DNA of 20,139 bases from a virus, in the IMG/VR virus record IMGVR_UViG_3300005433_000020, positions 1-20,139 of that record; one strand, written 5' to 3'. Positions within the stretch are counted from its first letter, which is position 1. The number at the start of each line of letters is the position of its first letter. Shown piece after piece: positions 441-7,210 of the stretch. Made by a program: the position numbers and the translations under genes. A model generated the notes under the pieces. The model saw only the letters and a list, made by a program, of their open reading frames with translations, did not search any database and was not told the DNA's origin.

Positions 441-3400
441 TTAAACTGCCGAGTTGATTGCAATTTTTTGGGTACCATCTGCGGTCTCTATAGATGCATT
501 TTCAATTCTAGCAAGTCTCTCATTCTGCTTTTCTAGTGCGGCTAGACTACGTTTTTCAAATTCAGTCATTTCTCCACCACCAGTATCAGTTTGGGCAAGT
601 TGACTATCGGACTGTACTTCAGCACTAGGTTCTTCTTCAGTTGGTTCTGGAGTAATATCAACAACGGGCATAGTTCCAGGTGATCCTGCATCTATTTCAG
701 CCATCATCTCAGCAAAGTTAGCATCCAACTTTGCTTGTAATTGTGCTTCCCATTCTTGAGGAGCGGCCATTGCTCTAAGGGCTTCTTCTTCGGTTTCAAA
801 GTGTCTTCTTTCCATTTCAGGTGCTTCACCTGTTAATGGATCTAATGAACCAAATTGACCATGAGCAATATATCCACCTCTCACCATGTCTCTTGTGACC
901 GTGTCTCCTAGAGTTCCACCAAAACCATTATCCATATTTCTTAATTCATCTAGTGGATCTACTGCTTTTTTAATTGCAGGTGATTCTATAAGAGTTGCTA
1001 CTTTAGATGAAGAAACTTGAACTTCTTTTAAAATATCATCTATAGGGACAGATTCTGCTGTAGTTGTGATTTCTTCTAATGCAGGGGTACTAATGGCTTT
1101 CCCTGCATCTGCTATCATATTTTCAACAACGTCTGTTGTTGCTAATAATTGTTCTGTATCAACTACTCCTGGAATAGGTGCGCCGCTTCCTGTTTCTTTT
1201 AATGCATTAGCAACAACTTCAGGTGTAATTTGTTCTGTAACAGTTTCTTCTTTTGCTTGTGCGAGTGCAAGTTGTTCTGCTTGTTTTTCTGCATTTCTTT
1301 TTTCTTCTGCTTTTATATCTGCCTCAAATATTTTGGCTAGATTTTCAGGAGACATATCTAATGTTCTGCCACCTACTTCTTCTTCTTTTACTTCTGCTAC
1401 TTCTTTTTCTTTTTCTTTTACTTCGTCTTTTTCGGCGTTTGCTTTCATCAAATCTAACTGTTTCTGCACTAATGCCGTGTCTGCTTCACTTAAATCATTA
1501 TCATATAGCATAGCCTCAAGCATTTCTTGTGAGAGAGTACCATCGTCTCTCATTTGGGCAAGCATTTCAAAGTTTACTTCACTATTACCAAGCAAGTCTT
1601 TGTCATATAGACCTATCTTCTGTATTTCCTCGTAATTGTCATTATATGCTTTTTCTAAACGTGTTGCTTCTTCTTCTTGTAATCGTGTTTGTTCCTTAAT
1701 AGCATCTCTGATCTCATTATATTTTTCTTTTTCTTCATCAGTCATTAAAGCATATTCAGCATCACTAGCATTATACATTTCTAAGTCTTCTGGACTTAGA
1801 TAGTTTTCTGCTATTGCACTTCCTGCTGAAGATCCGCCCCATGCTCCTAAGGCTCCGCCGATAATACCACCAATTGCTGTTCCAATGATTGGAATAAACG
1901 AACCTATGGCTGCACCTGCGGCCGCACCTGCAATGGCTCCACCAGTACCGCCGATTGCTGTACCGGCCCCCTTTCTGTTGGCTTGTTTAGTGTCTATTTC
2001 GTGCTGTTTTTTAGCACGATATATTTCTGCTACTGATGAGTCTTCGGCGTCTGTTACTTGGGCTAGTTGTGCATCTGCTTCATCTCGTCCTGCACTTGCT
2101 TCTGATACTCCACTATAAATAGACATTCCTGCGGCTAGTGGTACGGCTAATCTACTAACACCTTTTGATAAGAAGTTGCCGGCCGCTCTTAACCCTCTTG
2201 CTCGTTTACCGCCACCGTTACCGCCGCCGGTGAACATGTCTAACATGCCACTTCCTGCTCCTGAACCAGCCATGCCATATAATGCAGTTGTAGCGGTTCC
2301 TAATGCTATTGTAAAACCGCCTAGTGCAATAGTGCCTAATCCTAATCCACCTGTAAACGGATTAATCGAATTTAAAAACTCATCTGCGGCTGTTCTAACA
2401 TTAGTTTCAAATACTTGTAGTTCAGCGGCCAAATCTTTTTGTGTATCTACGCCTTCTTGTGTAGCCTCTGATACTTTATCAAAACTTTCTAATACTCTAT
2501 TCGTAGCCTGATCTTGGCTATCAAAAAGTCTGGCTGTATCTGTTGTTCTTTCGTTAATACCTACTGCGGCGCCGATCTCACTTGCGTTAGCGGCAAGTTC
2601 CATAGACTTACCGAACCTATCTACGTTTCGTCTAACACCACCTACGAGTTCACCTGTTGTTTCGGCAACTGCTTGTTTGTATTCGTCTGAACCAGCAGTC
2701 AAGCCTGCAAATCTTTCTTTAAGTTCTGCGGCATTAAGACCTAAGTTTGCTAGTTCTTTTGTATTCTCATCAAATGCCCCAGTACCAATAACGTTCATCA
2801 CTTTGGCAGCCATGTCTCTGCCTAGTAAACCTGCAAATTGGTTACCTGCATCGACTCTTACTTGTATTTCTTCTTCTCTTGCTCTTATTTCTGCTTCTAT
2901 CGATTTTCTTTTTTCAGCAGTAATGTTGCCGTCTAACTGTTGCTTAAGTCTTTCAATATCATTTTGATCACGTATATTACGAATCTTATTACGTAAGTCT
3001 GCTTGTACTGCGGCTTGTTCTTCTTTGAGTTGTCCGGCTTGAATACCTGTTAACTCTGATAATGTGTTTAATGTTTTTGCATACTGTAATGACTTAATAC
3101 GAACATCTTGTTCAGTCATCTCTCTGGCTTGCATATTAATACCAGATGTTCTTTGCAATTCTATGTAATATGCTTGTTGTTCTTGGGCTTCTCTTAGAGT
3201 GTACCCATATCTACGCATTTCTCTTTCTTGGTCATCAGATAATCTGAAGACTTCCAGCATTTTTGCTGTACCCTCAGAAGTACCTGCACCAAACGATGCT
3301 AATGCTTGAGAACTTTGAGTAATAACTACGGCTAATTCTTGTAAGTCACCTGCACTTGCGCCTGCGGCTCTTGCTTGTTCTGCTAAACCTTGGGTAGTTG

Positions 3401-3917
3401 TATCAACAATAGCACCCATTCGGTTCATTTCTTTTGCAAACTGATTTTGTGCATCAGCCTGTTTCATTGTAACGACTGTAAACTCGGCTAATATGTTTAC
3501 TGCGTTACCTAAAAACTTACCGAATCCACCTAATGCGTCACCAGTTTCTTTTGCTGAGTCTCCAAAGCCAGATACTGCTTTAGTATATTTGTCAAAACCG
3601 TCAACACCTGAAACTAATGCACCAGAAAAACTAACAACTGCACTAGTAGCAGTTCGCAATGCTCCTGACATTTTTTCAGCAGTTGTTTTTATTTGTTCGC
3701 CGGCTCTATCATCTGATTCTGTCTTCTTATTAGTAGAAGATGTTTGCTGTTTTGTGTTTTCTTCTGACTGTTTTGCGGCTTCCTGATTTGCCTGTGATGT
3801 TTGATTTAGGGTATTAGATAAATTTTGTAGTCCTGAATTTAATGCTCCCAAAGAGGCATTCATAGAATTTAAATTCTCATTAAATTCTCGCATTTCTTCA
3901 GGTGAAAAATCATCCAT
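441..3917 (-). CDS. Probable tail tape measure protein (1158 aa)
   Basis: A long protein with the make-up of a tape measure protein, which sets tail length inside the tube and helps DNA exit. Residues 1-70 are Asn/Gln/Ser-rich and likely coiled-coil. Charged helices follow, clearest at about 306-366 (RNIRDQNDIERLKQQL). A hydrophobic Gly-rich segment lies at about 506-560 and a glycine-zipper membrane-like segment at about 650-705 (GSFIPIIGTAIGGIIGGALG). A Lys/Glu-rich stretch is at about 826-849, and the last 40 residues contain a short coil (AALEKQNERLARIENA). Two hydrophobic segments within a helical protein are typical of tape measures. T4 gp29 is 590 residues, so this one is nearly twice as long. 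An AGGA SD lies 9 nt before the ATG. It is divergent from the gp26-like gene, as expected if that gene chaperones it. No single diagnostic motif was found, so another large virion protein cannot be excluded. Confidence 0.6.
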   Translation of the reverse strand: MDDFSPEEMREFNENLNSMNASLGALNSGLQNLSNTLNQTSQANQEAAKQSEENTKQQTSSTNKKTESDDRAGEQIKTTAEKMSGALRTATSAVVSFSGALVSGVDGFDKYTKAVSGFGDSAKETGDALGGFGKFLGNAVNILAEFTVVTMKQADAQNQFAKEMNRMGAIVDTTTQGLAEQARAAGASAGDLQELAVVITQSSQALASFGAGTSEGTAKMLEVFRLSDDQEREMRRYGYTLREAQEQQAYYIELQRTSGINMQAREMTEQDVRIKSLQYAKTLNTLSELTGIQAGQLKEEQAAVQADLRNKIRNIRDQNDIERLKQQLDGNITAEKRKSIEAEIRAREEEIQVRVDAGNQFAGLLGRDMAAKVMNVIGTGAFDENTKELANLGLNAAELKERFAGLTAGSDEYKQAVAETTGELVGGVRRNVDRFGKSMELAANASEIGAAVGINERTTDTARLFDSQDQATNRVLESFDKVSEATQEGVDTQKDLAAELQVFETNVRTAADEFLNSINPFTGGLGLGTIALGGFTIALGTATTALYGMAGSGAGSGMLDMFTGGGNGGGKRARGLRAAGNFLSKGVSRLAVPLAAGMSIYSGVSEASAGRDEADAQLAQVTDAEDSSVAEIYRAKKQHEIDTKQANRKGAGTAIGGTGGAIAGAAAGAAIGSFIPIIGTAIGGIIGGALGAWGGSSAGSAIAENYLSPEDLEMYNASDAEYALMTDEEKEKYNEIRDAIKEQTRLQEEEATRLEKAYNDNYEEIQKIGLYDKDLLGNSEVNFEMLAQMRDDGTLSQEMLEAMLYDNDLSEADTALVQKQLDLMKANAEKDEVKEKEKEVAEVKEEEVGGRTLDMSPENLAKIFEADIKAEEKRNAEKQAEQLALAQAKEETVTEQITPEVVANALKETGSGAPIPGVVDTEQLLATTDVVENMIADAGKAISTPALEEITTTAESVPIDDILKEVQVSSSKVATLIESPAIKKAVDPLDELRNMDNGFGGTLGDTVTRDMVRGGYIAHGQFGSLDPLTGEAPEMERRHFETEEEALRAMAAPQEWEAQLQAKLDANFAEMMAEIDAGSPGTMPVVDITPEPTEEEPSAEVQSDSQLAQTDTGGGEMTEFEKRSLAALEKQNERLARIENASIETADGTQKIAINSAV

Positions 3918-4024: not shown

Positions 4025-4885
4025 ATGACAATTAATGAAAATAATCCGCTACGACAGTTTTTTCGTAGACCCGCTGTACATATCTCTTTACCGTCAGGTG
4101 GGGAAAGTTACGCACCTGAAGACATCGAATGGCCTGAGAACAAAGAATTACCTGTCTATCCTATGACAGCAATCGATGAAATAACGACAAAGACTCCAGA
4201 TGCTTTGTTTAATGGTACAGCCATGGTAGAGATTATTAAAAGTTGTGTACCAGCAATTAAGAATCCTTGGGCATTATTAAGTACTGATTTAGATACAGTA
4301 TTAATCTCTATCAAAGCCGCAGGTGGGCAAGAAACTATTGATGTTGAGTCTAAATGTGAGAAATGCGGTGAAGAAGGTACATATGGTATTAATCTACAAG
4401 TTCTACTAAGATCATTGGGGGCAGGAGATTATGAAACTCCTTTAAGAATGAATGAGTTAGAAATTTATTTTGCGCCCTTAAAGTACAAAGAAATGAATGA
4501 AGCAGGTCTAAAACAGTTTGAAATTCAAGCAAAATACAAAAACTTATCTGCTATTGAAGATCAACAAGAACGTACCTTAGTAAGTGCTGAAGCATTGAAA
4601 GATATTACAGTACTCACAATGGAAATCTTGTCTCAAACAATCGTAAAAATTGTTACTCCTGAAGGAGAAGTTACTGATACAGATCATATACATGACTTTC
4701 TAAAGAATGCTGACACGAAAACTTATGAAACTATAAGAGATCACAACACGCAACTTAGAGAGAAATCAACAATTAAGCCTCTAACTATTGTATGTACCGC
4801 AGGTTCAGATGATCCAGAAAAAGAAGAATGTGGACATGAGTACAAGCAACCATTCACATTGAACGCATCGGATTTTTTCGTCTAA
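4025..4885 (+). CDS. gp26: gp26-like baseplate hub / tail assembly protein, zero-frame product (286 aa)
   Basis: The N-terminus NNPLRQFFRRPAVHISLPSG and the Pro/Trp-rich segment after it match the T4 gp26 baseplate family (Pfam T4_baseplate) as I know it. Four cysteines form two pairs: C111-x2-C114 and C257-x11-C269-GH, the layout of a zinc ribbon. T4 gp26 is 208 residues and is needed for hub assembly; this protein is longer. A strong SD (GGGGA) lies 6 nt before the ATG. The zero frame ends in Asp-Phe-Phe-Val at TAA 4883-4885, on a slippery heptamer at 4873-4879. A -1 shift gives a 361-residue fusion with the downstream gp51-like domain. The gene sits next to the tape measure gene, as do the frameshifting chaperone genes of other tailed phages. 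The short form is presumably the major product. Confidence 0.82.
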   Translation: MTINENNPLRQFFRRPAVHISLPSGGESYAPEDIEWPENKELPVYPMTAIDEITTKTPDALFNGTAMVEIIKSCVPAIKNPWALLSTDLDTVLISIKAAGGQETIDVESKCEKCGEEGTYGINLQVLLRSLGAGDYETPLRMNELEIYFAPLKYKEMNEAGLKQFEIQAKYKNLSAIEDQQERTLVSAEALKDITVLTMEILSQTIVKIVTPEGEVTDTDHIHDFLKNADTKTYETIRDHNTQLREKSTIKPLTIVCTAGSDDPEKEECGHEYKQPFTLNASDFFV

Positions 4886-4922
4886 GACTCCTTTCACTCG
4901 ACCCTGAAGGGATAAGGGAGTT
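4873..4922 (+). promoter_or_regulatory. Programmed -1 ribosomal frameshift signal (slippery T TTT TTC plus stem-loop)
   Basis: In the gp26 frame the codons are GAT TTT TTC GTC TAA. The heptamer T TTT TTC (4873-4879) fits the X XXY YYZ rule for tandem -1 slippage, and the zero-frame stop follows one codon later. Eight nucleotides downstream begins a stem: 4888-4894 (CTCCTTT) pairs with 4914-4920 (AAGGGAG, one G-U). It can be extended by A-U and G-U pairs at 4886-4887/4921-4922. The 19-nt loop holds a small CCC-TGAA-GGG hairpin (4902-4911). Spacer and stem are in the range known for phage frameshift sites. Confidence 0.8.
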
Positions 4923-5109
4923 AATACAAAAATATGAAGAATACACTCAGGGCTTAAAGTCAAACGCCTTGACTTTGGCTTGGTACATGCGTGGTGGTGC
5001 CTCATATGAAGATGTCCTTAACATGTCCCTATCAGAACGTAAAGCCATAAACAAATTAATTGAGGAACACTTAGAAACTACTAAGAAAACTCAAATGCCA
5101 TTCTTCTAA
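4879..5109 (+). CDS. gp51: gp51-like domain, translated as -1 frameshift extension of gp26
   Basis: The -1 frame is open from 4840 (after TGA 4837-4839) to TAA 5107-5109. It contains no ATG, GTG or TTG before the conserved-looking part; the first ATG lies inside the core, in Trp-Tyr-Met-Arg-Gly-Gly. Reading from C4879 after slippage gives 76 codons: RLRLLSLDPEGIRELI, a helix with EEYTQGLKSNALTLAWYMRG, then MSLSERKAINKLIEEH and the end TTKKTQMPFF. Small proteins with a 'W-x-M-R-G-G ... E-R-x-x-I-N' core and a 'TKK...PFF' tail follow gp26 in T4-like phages and are usually called gp51, hub assembly catalyst; I recognise the pattern from memory. The full fusion is 4025-4879 plus 4879-5109, 361 residues. 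Stand-alone expression by internal initiation cannot be ruled out. Confidence 0.75.
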   Translation, partial: RLRLLSLDPEGIRELIQKYEEYTQGLKSNALTLAWYMRGGASYEDVLNMSLSERKAINKLIEEHLETTKKTQMPFF

Positions 5110-5588: not shown

Positions 5589-6176
5589 TTAAAAGTCTAC
5601 TGTAGTTGTTGTTGTGTTTAGTTTTAGTTCTGACTTGGTGTCATCGGTGGGTTCTGAGTTGGTCTCTGTGTCGCCTGCGTATGCTTTGAATATATCTTTA
5701 TTGAATTTAAAAAAGTGATCCCATCCAAATATTACCCAGTCACCATGATTGTCTGATGTGTAATATATGAATTGATCACTTACGAATGTGTATTTACTTG
5801 GTACACATACAAAACGTCCTTTACGATTAAACTTCATAAAGAGAACGTCAAAATCCCCTTCATCATGCACGTCCATTAATTGGTCGAGCCATTCTTCTAG
5901 TTGTCTGCATGAACCAGAAAGAAGTTGATGAAAAGGGAAATCTGCGTAGAACTTACATTCTACATTTAACTTGTGAAAACTTTCTCCGGGAACAATGTCG
6001 CCTTTGAAACTTCTGATTTGTCCTTCATGCAAAATCTCTGTACGATTTTGATTTTTGCCACCTACATAAGCACCAGAGCCAGGAGCACGTATGAAACTTT
6101 CTTCATAAGTCTCACTGAGAAATTTTGCAACTTCTCGTTCAAATCCTGATCCTTTGTTCTTAGATGGTGATGGCAT
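5589..6176 (-). CDS. PDDEXK-fold nuclease, Holliday-junction-resolvase-like (195 aa)
   Basis: Starts MPSPSKNKGSGFEREVAKFL, the opening of Hjc-type resolvases and related nucleases (K-G-x-x-F-E-R-E-x-x). The catalytic series expected for the PDDEXK fold is present: E13 in the first helix, D60 in KGDIV, and E73-x-K75 in NVECKF. These would bind divalent metal and cut DNA, perhaps branched DNA. Residues after 165 are Thr/Asp-rich and likely disordered. The ATG lies 17 bp after the radical SAM stop. AAGGAG overlaps that stop codon but is 13 nt from the ATG, a long spacing. It closes the gp47-gp46-radical SAM gene string, so a role in recombination or in resolving replication intermediates before packaging is plausible. 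T4 uses the unrelated gp49 for this. The exact substrate cannot be read from sequence. Confidence 0.65.
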   Translation of the reverse strand: MPSPSKNKGSGFEREVAKFLSETYEESFIRAPGSGAYVGGKNQNRTEILHEGQIRSFKGDIVPGESFHKLNVECKFYADFPFHQLLSGSCRQLEEWLDQLMDVHDEGDFDVLFMKFNRKGRFVCVPSKYTFVSDQFIYYTSDNHGDWVIFGWDHFFKFNKDIFKAYAGDTETNSEPTDDTKSELKLNTTTTTVDF

Positions 6177-6193
6177 TATATATAGTTATCTCC

Positions 6194-7210
6194 TTACCAC
6201 TCGGTGGCATAATTTTTATCTACCCTATGATGGGCACATTTTGTTTGGCACTCGTAAGAGTCATGTATAAAGTCGGCTTCCCAGAATTTATCTTTTACAA
6301 TTTTGGGTAACCTCAATTCATGTAGATTATATTTCTTGCCAATTTCATTCCATTTATTGTTGTGTCCATATCTTGTAGCAACCCAACAACAGGGGTAAAA
6401 TTCGCCCCTAGCATTAATGTAACTACCTTTATTGCCGATATGACATAGAGGTCGTTCATTTCCTACTAACTTAGATTCATCATACAACTTAATGTTTGTC
6501 TTCATCCAAGGTTCTTTAATTGTTTTATCTGTAAACTTAAAGACTTCTCTTTCAAATCTATGACTAGATGATAACAGATCATCACGTGGTTGTAAAGCAT
6601 CTTCTTTCCCATAAGAATCTTCGTATATCTTACCGAACTTAGTGCTACGTGTTAATTGAAATGCATCAAAACCTAAGTCTCTAGCATAATTCTGCATGTC
6701 GCCAATCTTATCTTCGTTAAACTTAAAGCCTATTGCGTCCCATACGGTATAACAATTAGACTTATCATTGATGATAGAGACGCCTGTAATGATACTAGAC
6801 CAATTAGAATTGATTCGATAGAGATTATTACTCTCATGGTCCCAGCCGTCGATACTGAAGTGAATCTGATCTTGCTCATCAAGCATTTCTGCTAGTCTTG
6901 CCCACCAGTCTTCATTTTTATATGATCCGTTAGTGACGATAATGATTGCTATACTAGGCTTAATTGATTTGAAATACTGGATGACTTCTAAGAAGTCATG
7001 TGCATAGATAGGATCGCCATCGTCACCACAGAACGTTAGTTTCTCTACGTGTTCTAATATAAAGAACGCAGGGAAGTTTTGTTTAAAAAAATCTAGTTTG
7101 AGTTCAGTACTGACTAATGTATCAGGAACTTCTTGTCTAGGACATCGTGGGCACTTTAAAGTACACTTACTGCTTACTTCAATATGCCAGTGCCACAAGG
7201 CTAGACTCAC
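6194..7210 (-). CDS. Radical SAM enzyme with SPASM-like C-terminus (338 aa)
   Basis: C16-x3-C20-x2-C23 (CTLKCPRC) is the [4Fe-4S]/S-adenosylmethionine motif. FCGDDGDP at about 60-67 stands where the SAM-binding 'GGE' strand is expected, and FSIDGWD is the usual 'S-x-D-G' strand motif. The C-terminal part has further cysteines in SPASM/twitch style: LCHIGNKG, then YPCCW, then ECQTKC near residue 325, probably binding a second cluster. Such enzymes start radical chemistry on peptides, RNA or small molecules; the substrate here is unknown. The start is GTG at 7210, in a GTGA overlap with the gp46 stop. GGAG lies 5-6 nt upstream and no Met precedes the cluster motif, so GTG is the only sensible start. 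It is coupled to gp46 and followed by the PDDEXK nuclease. Confidence 0.85.
   Translation of the reverse strand: MSLALWHWHIEVSSKCTLKCPRCPRQEVPDTLVSTELKLDFFKQNFPAFFILEHVEKLTFCGDDGDPIYAHDFLEVIQYFKSIKPSIAIIIVTNGSYKNEDWWARLAEMLDEQDQIHFSIDGWDHESNNLYRINSNWSSIITGVSIINDKSNCYTVWDAIGFKFNEDKIGDMQNYARDLGFDAFQLTRSTKFGKIYEDSYGKEDALQPRDDLLSSSHRFEREVFKFTDKTIKEPWMKTNIKLYDESKLVGNERPLCHIGNKGSYINARGEFYPCCWVATRYGHNNKWNEIGKKYNLHELRLPKIVKDKFWEADFIHDSYECQTKCAHHRVDKNYATEW

Follow-up and report, generated by a model that had tools for sequence, protein, structure and literature searches.

A candidate −1 frameshift in a probable gp26-type tail assembly chaperone gene and its relation to T4 genes 26 and 51

Introduction

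In phage lambda, one gene gives rise to two tail assembly chaperones, a short form, G, and, by a −1 slip near the end of the gene, a long form, GT, with an extra C-terminal part (PMC5009743, in part). A passage of the same source describes G-T frameshifting as widely conserved 'except T4'. For T4-like phages, a mechanism other than frameshifting is named in the title of a paper on their tail assembly chaperones (Vladimirov, Gautam and Davidson 2022, Virology 566:9-15). Passages citing that paper state that some T4-like phages dispense with frameshifting and have two genes, one short and one fused and long (PMC10885494), and that poly-T sequences are known shift signals in the TAC-N genes of T4-like phages (PMC12846349). 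The genes are unnamed in these passages, and we infer that the short and fused genes are the T4-like genes 26 and 51. Cyanophage gp51 was reported at ~20% of full length in a passage of PMC3037559, where cyanophage and marine vibriophage gp51 are described as being without the first ~200 residues.

A preliminary description of the DNA analyzed here proposed that gp26 and a small frame behind it are one gene with a programmed −1 frameshift, and knew of no published account of this. As far as T4-like phages are concerned, the idea proved to be largely in print (Vladimirov et al. 2022, as represented in the papers citing it). For giant phages, no description of a slippery site was found in the literature at the level of titles and abstract openings, and the relevant passages of PMC3711429, PMC3121705, PMC6102473, PMC11273794, PMC1821046, PMC12671138, PMC9603447, and PMC11821841 contained nothing on such a site.

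Gene layout and predicted products

The window, i.e., the whole stretch of DNA that was analyzed, is the 20,139-nt virus record IMGVR_UViG_3300005433_000020 (positions 1-20,139). Its features relevant to this study are as follows.

4025..4885, + strand: gp26 / TAC-N zero-frame open reading frame, 286 aa (PF12322 T4_baseplate; phrog_150, baseplate hub)
4873..4879, + strand: slippery heptamer T TTT TTC (106/106 and 79/79 usable loci; frozen codons)
4883..4885, + strand: zero-frame stop TAA, ending the short form (same offset in 106/106 and 79/79 loci)
4886..4922, + strand: downstream stem-loop with arms 4886-4894 and 4914-4922, a probable shift stimulator (fold and covariation)
4879..5109, + strand: −1 frame extension of 76 codons plus stop, TAC-C-like (pN/pS, structure model, profile comparisons)
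441..3917, − strand: divergent tape-measure-like neighbor, 1158 aa (phrog matches)

The 3' end of gp26 reads GAT TTT TTC GTC TAA. It contains the heptamer in the exact X XXY YYZ register (GA-T TTT TTC) with the stop one codon past its TTC, just as first described. The −1 frame is open from 4840 to 5109; the 76 codons following the heptamer occupy 4879-5106, and the stop 5107-5109. The claim that this frame lacks an early start was likewise borne out, the first candidates being two TTG codons (residues 31 and 33) and an ATG (residue 37), with no Shine-Dalgarno-like sequence recognizable by eye in the 18 bases before them.

The zero-frame product matched PF12322 at 42.8 bits (cutoff 24.5) and also phrog_150. 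Cysteines 74, 111, 114, 257, and 269 and the Phe-Phe pair at 284-285 are invariant across 15 aligned sequences; by eye, the last four of these cysteines (111, 114, 257, and 269) resemble a zinc ribbon. No match to any Pfam family above cutoff or to any phrog was obtained for the extension of the window, and a Pfam scan of 44 extensions returned weak matches alone, the best with an E-value of 0.00077 in one member and no family in more than 8. The AlphaFold2 model of the extension is all-helical (mean pLDDT 88.0), and the gp26 model reached a mean pLDDT of 85.6. Sequence searches against solved structures gave nothing useful for either part. Foldseek with the gp26 model found no significant match among solved structures, and VIA-align 2 with both models returned weak rows that did not include tail chaperones; both results are compatible with a fold shared with lambda/HK97-type chaperones.

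No separate gene of the T4 gp51 type was found in the downstream frame, which is without a PF12322 match and without an early start. A second gp26-like copy was not found in the record either, which is a 20-kb fragment, and such a copy could lie elsewhere in the genome.

The arrangement resembles lambda G/GT in having a short form, a −1 slip near its end, a long form extended at the C terminus, and a tape measure gene nearby. It differs in the divergent orientation of the tape-measure-like gene in the window clade. The lambda heptamer, G GGA AAG, is also different from that of the window, and no link in sequence or solved structure between lambda G/GT and the window proteins was found. A similar case is described for Pakpunavirus Adele and Vandenendeviridae, where a T-run close to the end of TAC-N is the site of a conserved −1 shift and annotations mostly show the extension as a hypothetical gene of its own, but the motif there is GTTTTT and the phage group is a different one (PMC12846349, in part).

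Conservation in relatives

The closest annotated relatives of the window gene are from giant phages (Phosso, Atu_ph07, PA5oct, RaK2, 121Q, GAP32, and others), with 25-33% identity over most of gp26. When the extension alone was used in tblastn, with E-values up to 1, matches were confined to Atu_ph07 (two records) and Phosso. Inspection of 16 of the 62 matching annotated records for the slippery site revealed T TTT TTC in 14 and T TTT TTT in XacN1 and RAS14. From the first base of the heptamer to the zero-frame stop, the distance was 10 to 40 nt in 13 of the 14 T TTT TTC records, 70 nt in LR756511, 37 nt in XacN1, and 40 nt in RAS14. The slippery site was also present in S-SM2, ACG-2014f, Vibrio PVA8, Aeromonas 65.2, and BUCT608.

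Two larger sets were drawn from IMG/VR. The window clade set consists of 26 loci, 80 kept of 262, and the window itself, giving 107; two contigs are counted twice in it (L041/L134 and L042/L135), and one locus that runs off its contig (L177) was dropped. In all 106 usable loci, which represent 64 distinct 60-base sequences, the heptamer is followed by a stop 10 nt after its first base and by a 76-codon extension. The cyanophage-type set contains 80 loci kept of at least 598, one of which (L127) was dropped. All of the remaining 79 have the heptamer and a stop 10 nt after its first base, with extensions of 59-66 codons in 78 and one that is cut off. IMG/VR yielded few relatives of PVA8 or of the PA5oct and Atu_ph07 types (1 and 3 loci).

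A sequencing or assembly error in the homopolymer could also split one gene into two frames, and homopolymer indels are common sequencing errors. However, the same frame break recurs at the same place in many contigs, both across IMG/VR loci and in isolate genomes, which refutes this explanation and leaves it a negligible probability.

The slippery site is absent from gp26 in three two-gene phages, T4, Roth26, and avDM2. A separate start for the gp51 domain combined with absence of the site, named in the preliminary description as evidence against a shift, was seen in phages with two full genes alone. The exception among single-locus relatives is Ackermannvirus dinky, which has A ATT TTC instead and in which the −1 frame opens at that very spot, suggesting a non-canonical shift site. 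In this Salmonella phage, the −1 frame begins ahead of the gp26 stop (L048:2944-3117), and its extension matches phrog_9633 and, weakly, phrog_634 (0.0026). No gp26 was found in the 75-124 kb region of P-SSM4.

Codon conservation and selection

Codon choice was analyzed in 77 distinct gp26 coding sequences, leaving out L018 and L029, whose protein is identical to that of the window. Across the 67 degenerate columns conserved in amino acid at 95% or more, the median share of the commonest codon was 0.58. A single codon occupied at least 98% of rows in 3 of the 67 columns, and these are precisely the GAT, TTT, and TTC of the heptamer: GAT in all 76 rows that encode Asp, the remaining row having AAT, and TTT and TTC in 77 of 77 each. 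Outside the last three codons, the same genes use TTT 431 times vs. TTC 184 times for Phe, and GAT 1043 times vs. GAC 366 times for Asp. Conservation of the site, together with these frozen codons, rules out chance as its general explanation.

The extension had a median pN/pS of 0.35 in the −1 frame, compared with 1.09 and 1.51 in the other two frames (70 unique extensions; 1904 pairs at 60-95% identity, which are not independent). At the sequence level, this shows the −1 frame extension to be under purifying selection as a protein.

The start codons and the frozen heptamer also bear on whether the locus holds two separate genes, the downstream frame being translated by reinitiation or coupling at a start near the gp26 stop. 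Such a frame is annotated as a separate CDS in the records of 121Q, pEaSNUABM47, XbC2, Phosso, and ACG-2014f, and an early −1 frame ATG, within 15 codons, occurs in 21 of the 106 loci of the window clade and in 77 of the 79 of the cyanophage type, where 6 of the 77 also have a Shine-Dalgarno-like sequence. The expected lack of a start held for the window and for the 66 of 106 clade loci in which none of the first 15 codons is ATG, GTG, or TTG, but seldom for the cyanophage type. Separate initiation gives no need for frozen heptamer codons, however, and these together with the start-codon counts rule it out as a general explanation; we regard it as very unlikely. Given the early ATG in 21 and 77 loci, respectively, separate initiation is conceivable there, and reinitiation could add free extension to the frameshift product. 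Besides the heptamer, 19 of 106 window-clade loci (e.g., L143:6819-6878) have a −1 frame ATG that overlaps the stop of gp26, and in those 19 the extension may be reached by two routes.

Downstream stem-loop

The stem reported at 4886-4894/4914-4922 folds as described, at −13.1 kcal/mol, but the spacer between the heptamer and the stem (4880-4885) measures 6 nt rather than the 8 nt given at first. By fold energy alone, the window stem does not stand out (z −1.59; 13 of 200 shuffled sequences are as stable), and the support for the stem comes from covariation. In the 64 distinct ungapped sequences of the window clade, the covarying stem comprises 13 pairs (columns 14-26 with 36-50, with a bulge of 2), and 86.7% of cells are paired. 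Cells with double changes numbered 70, compared with 21.2 in shuffles (0 of 500 reached 70); slid controls gave no more than 35. Neither the count of pairs showing double changes (7 vs. 6.0, with 146 of 500 shuffles as high) nor that of further pair types (22 vs. 20.7 in shuffles) was exceptional. RNAalifold recovered 10 of the 13 pairs, and two inner pairs of the nine originally proposed were weak beyond the near relatives of the window. When the 64 sequences were folded singly, the six core pairs formed in 56, five of them in one, three or four in five, and none in L162 and L210. It is probable that this stem-loop stimulates the −1 shift.

The heptamer holds a run of six T, on which transcriptional slippage could also produce mixed mRNAs instead of the ribosome slipping. 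Yet the length of the run does not vary: all 185 usable loci of the two sets have exactly six T and then C, with the codon register fixed, and a covarying RNA stem lies 6 nt downstream in the window clade. A fixed short run followed by a stem better fits ribosomal −1 shifting, and we regard transcriptional slippage, too, as very unlikely. Ribosomal frameshifting within one gene, the core of the original proposal, is very strongly supported on this sequence evidence: heptamer, stop, extension, and stem are kept in divergent relatives in the alignments that had been suggested as a check, the stem within the window clade.

Relation to T4 gp26 and gp51

PF12322 is matched end to end by both T4 gp26 (8.8e-64) and T4 gp51 (3.9e-52), showing at the level of sequence that the two belong to one family. 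T4 gp51 has ~48 further residues; it resembles the long form, and gp26 the short form. T4 does have separate genes 26 and 51, as stated in the preliminary description, but they are not arranged as 26 followed by 51: the genes lie on opposite strands and are divergent, and gp51 contains a full PF12322 domain. T4 thus has two divergent genes where the window has one frameshifted gene, all in PF12322. The downstream frame was therefore rejected as T4 gp51 outright, that being a full PF12322 protein plus a tail. The label 'gp51' does not suit the window extension in the sense of a whole gp51, but it can hold in the sense of the T4 gp51 tail, to which the extension is probably equivalent.

This use of the label follows from full-length profile comparisons; the extension alone matches weakly. 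In hhalign, for which E-values were computed for single pairs and the gp51 profile consists of three sequences, the fused profile of five cyanophage/Straboviridae-type phages aligned with gp51 at 99.1%, through the FF junction (98.6% with deeper alignments), and with the fused profile of window and jumbo phages at 99.3% (99.1% with deeper alignments, reaching the end of the extension). The window/jumbo fused profile compared directly with gp51 gave 8.7% (deeper, 11.8%). With extensions alone, the cyanophage type matched the gp51 tail at 97.8 and 97.3%, the window clade matched the gp51 tail at 83.9 and 83.7% over 29 columns, and the window clade matched the cyanophage type at 6.8% (deeper, 37.8%). 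These profiles make the link between T4 and the cyanophages firm; the window is linked firmly through the main domain and more weakly through the extension.

The family phrog_634, 'baseplate hub assembly catalyst', matches residues 147-246 of T4 gp51 and the −1 extensions of S-SM2, ACG-2014f, PVA8, and 65.2, but it was not matched by the extensions of the window, BUCT608, PA5oct, or RAS14. The window extension thus differs from cyanophage gp51 in this respect. Extensions of RaK2, CBB, and 121Q match phrog_18291, a family of unknown function.

In a duplication tree, three T4-type gp26 and three gp51 sequences clustered inside the cyanophage/Straboviridae group, with support of 83/86, under the 95/80 mark, and with long gp26 branches that were flagged. 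The tree is consistent with one duplication. We consider it fairly likely, after allowing for the weak matches of the extensions alone, that a single frameshifting chaperone gene like that of the window was the ancestor of both the T4 'hub' protein, gp26, and the 'hub assembly catalyst', gp51. After a duplication, one copy would have kept the short form, and the long form would have become fixed in frame in the other. The ancestral frameshift and its RNA stimulator would have persisted in giant and marine relatives, and the short cyanophage gp51 would be the −1 extension, with no separate gene.

Neighboring genes

The product of 441-3917 matches phrogs including the tail length tape measure families phrog_794 and phrog_167, its two best matches being of unknown function. 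The adjacency to a tape measure gene assumed in the preliminary description stands in so far as a tape-measure-like gene adjoins, but its orientation is divergent. Counted by ORF length only, a divergent ORF of 500 aa or more starts within 400 nt in 99 of the 100 window-clade loci with at least 2 kb upstream, six loci having too little sequence. In the cyanophage type, a long same-strand ORF, again counted by length, follows directly downstream in 53 of the 57 loci with room (22 had too little sequence). In annotated relatives, the evidence from neighbors was mixed: weak tape measure matches in S-SM2 (2.2e-05); unknown families alone for the downstream proteins of PVA8, 65.2, and BUCT608; just 'virion structural protein' in RaK2 and Vibrio 2.275.O; and no phrog match in Phosso and PA5oct. 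The records of RaK2 and pEaSNUABM47 annotate their neighbors as tape-measure-like. In Atu_ph07, the flanking genes are small and a long neighbor is absent.

Elsewhere in the window, a gene for a radical SAM protein (6194-7210; PF04055, 31.9 bits, cutoff 29.5; phrog_21308) adjoins a PDDEXK / RusA-like nuclease gene (5589-6176).

Implications for tail assembly

With a probability of roughly 0.9, positions 4025-5109 are one gene that encodes a tail assembly chaperone pair through a −1 frameshift. Most ribosomes would stop at 4883 and release the short form, gp26 / TAC-N, and a minority would shift into the −1 frame at T TTT TTC, probably aided by the stem-loop 6 nt downstream, to make a 361-residue long form, TAC-NC. 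Both the occurrence of the shift and its rate are predicted. Homology and position further predict that the pair acts as chaperones of the tape measure protein; by analogy with lambda gpG/gpGT, this protein would be bound by the part common to both forms, and the tail tube protein would be brought in by the extension. T4 would make each form from its own paralog, the short one from gene 26 and the long one from gene 51.

None of the annotated records inspected (L001-L004, L006-L015, L017, L045-L049, and L051) gives a joined CDS; several give a separate small CDS, and the extension is unannotated as a CDS in those of PA5oct, RaK2, Aeromonas 65.2, and dinky. Because these single-locus annotations never join the two parts, the long form would be hidden from proteomics searches.

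It is highly probable that the window gene yields two tail-building helper proteins, one short and one longer, by a ribosomal slip back of one base, and the gene represents a strong new example of the known kind of frameshifted tail assembly chaperone. The basic idea is already published for T4-like phages, as the papers citing Vladimirov et al. indicate; what is gained is its breadth across giant and marine relatives and the sequence evidence. A frameshift could also account for the cyanophage and marine vibriophage gp51 described in PMC3037559, in the passage concerned, as being without the N-terminal part.
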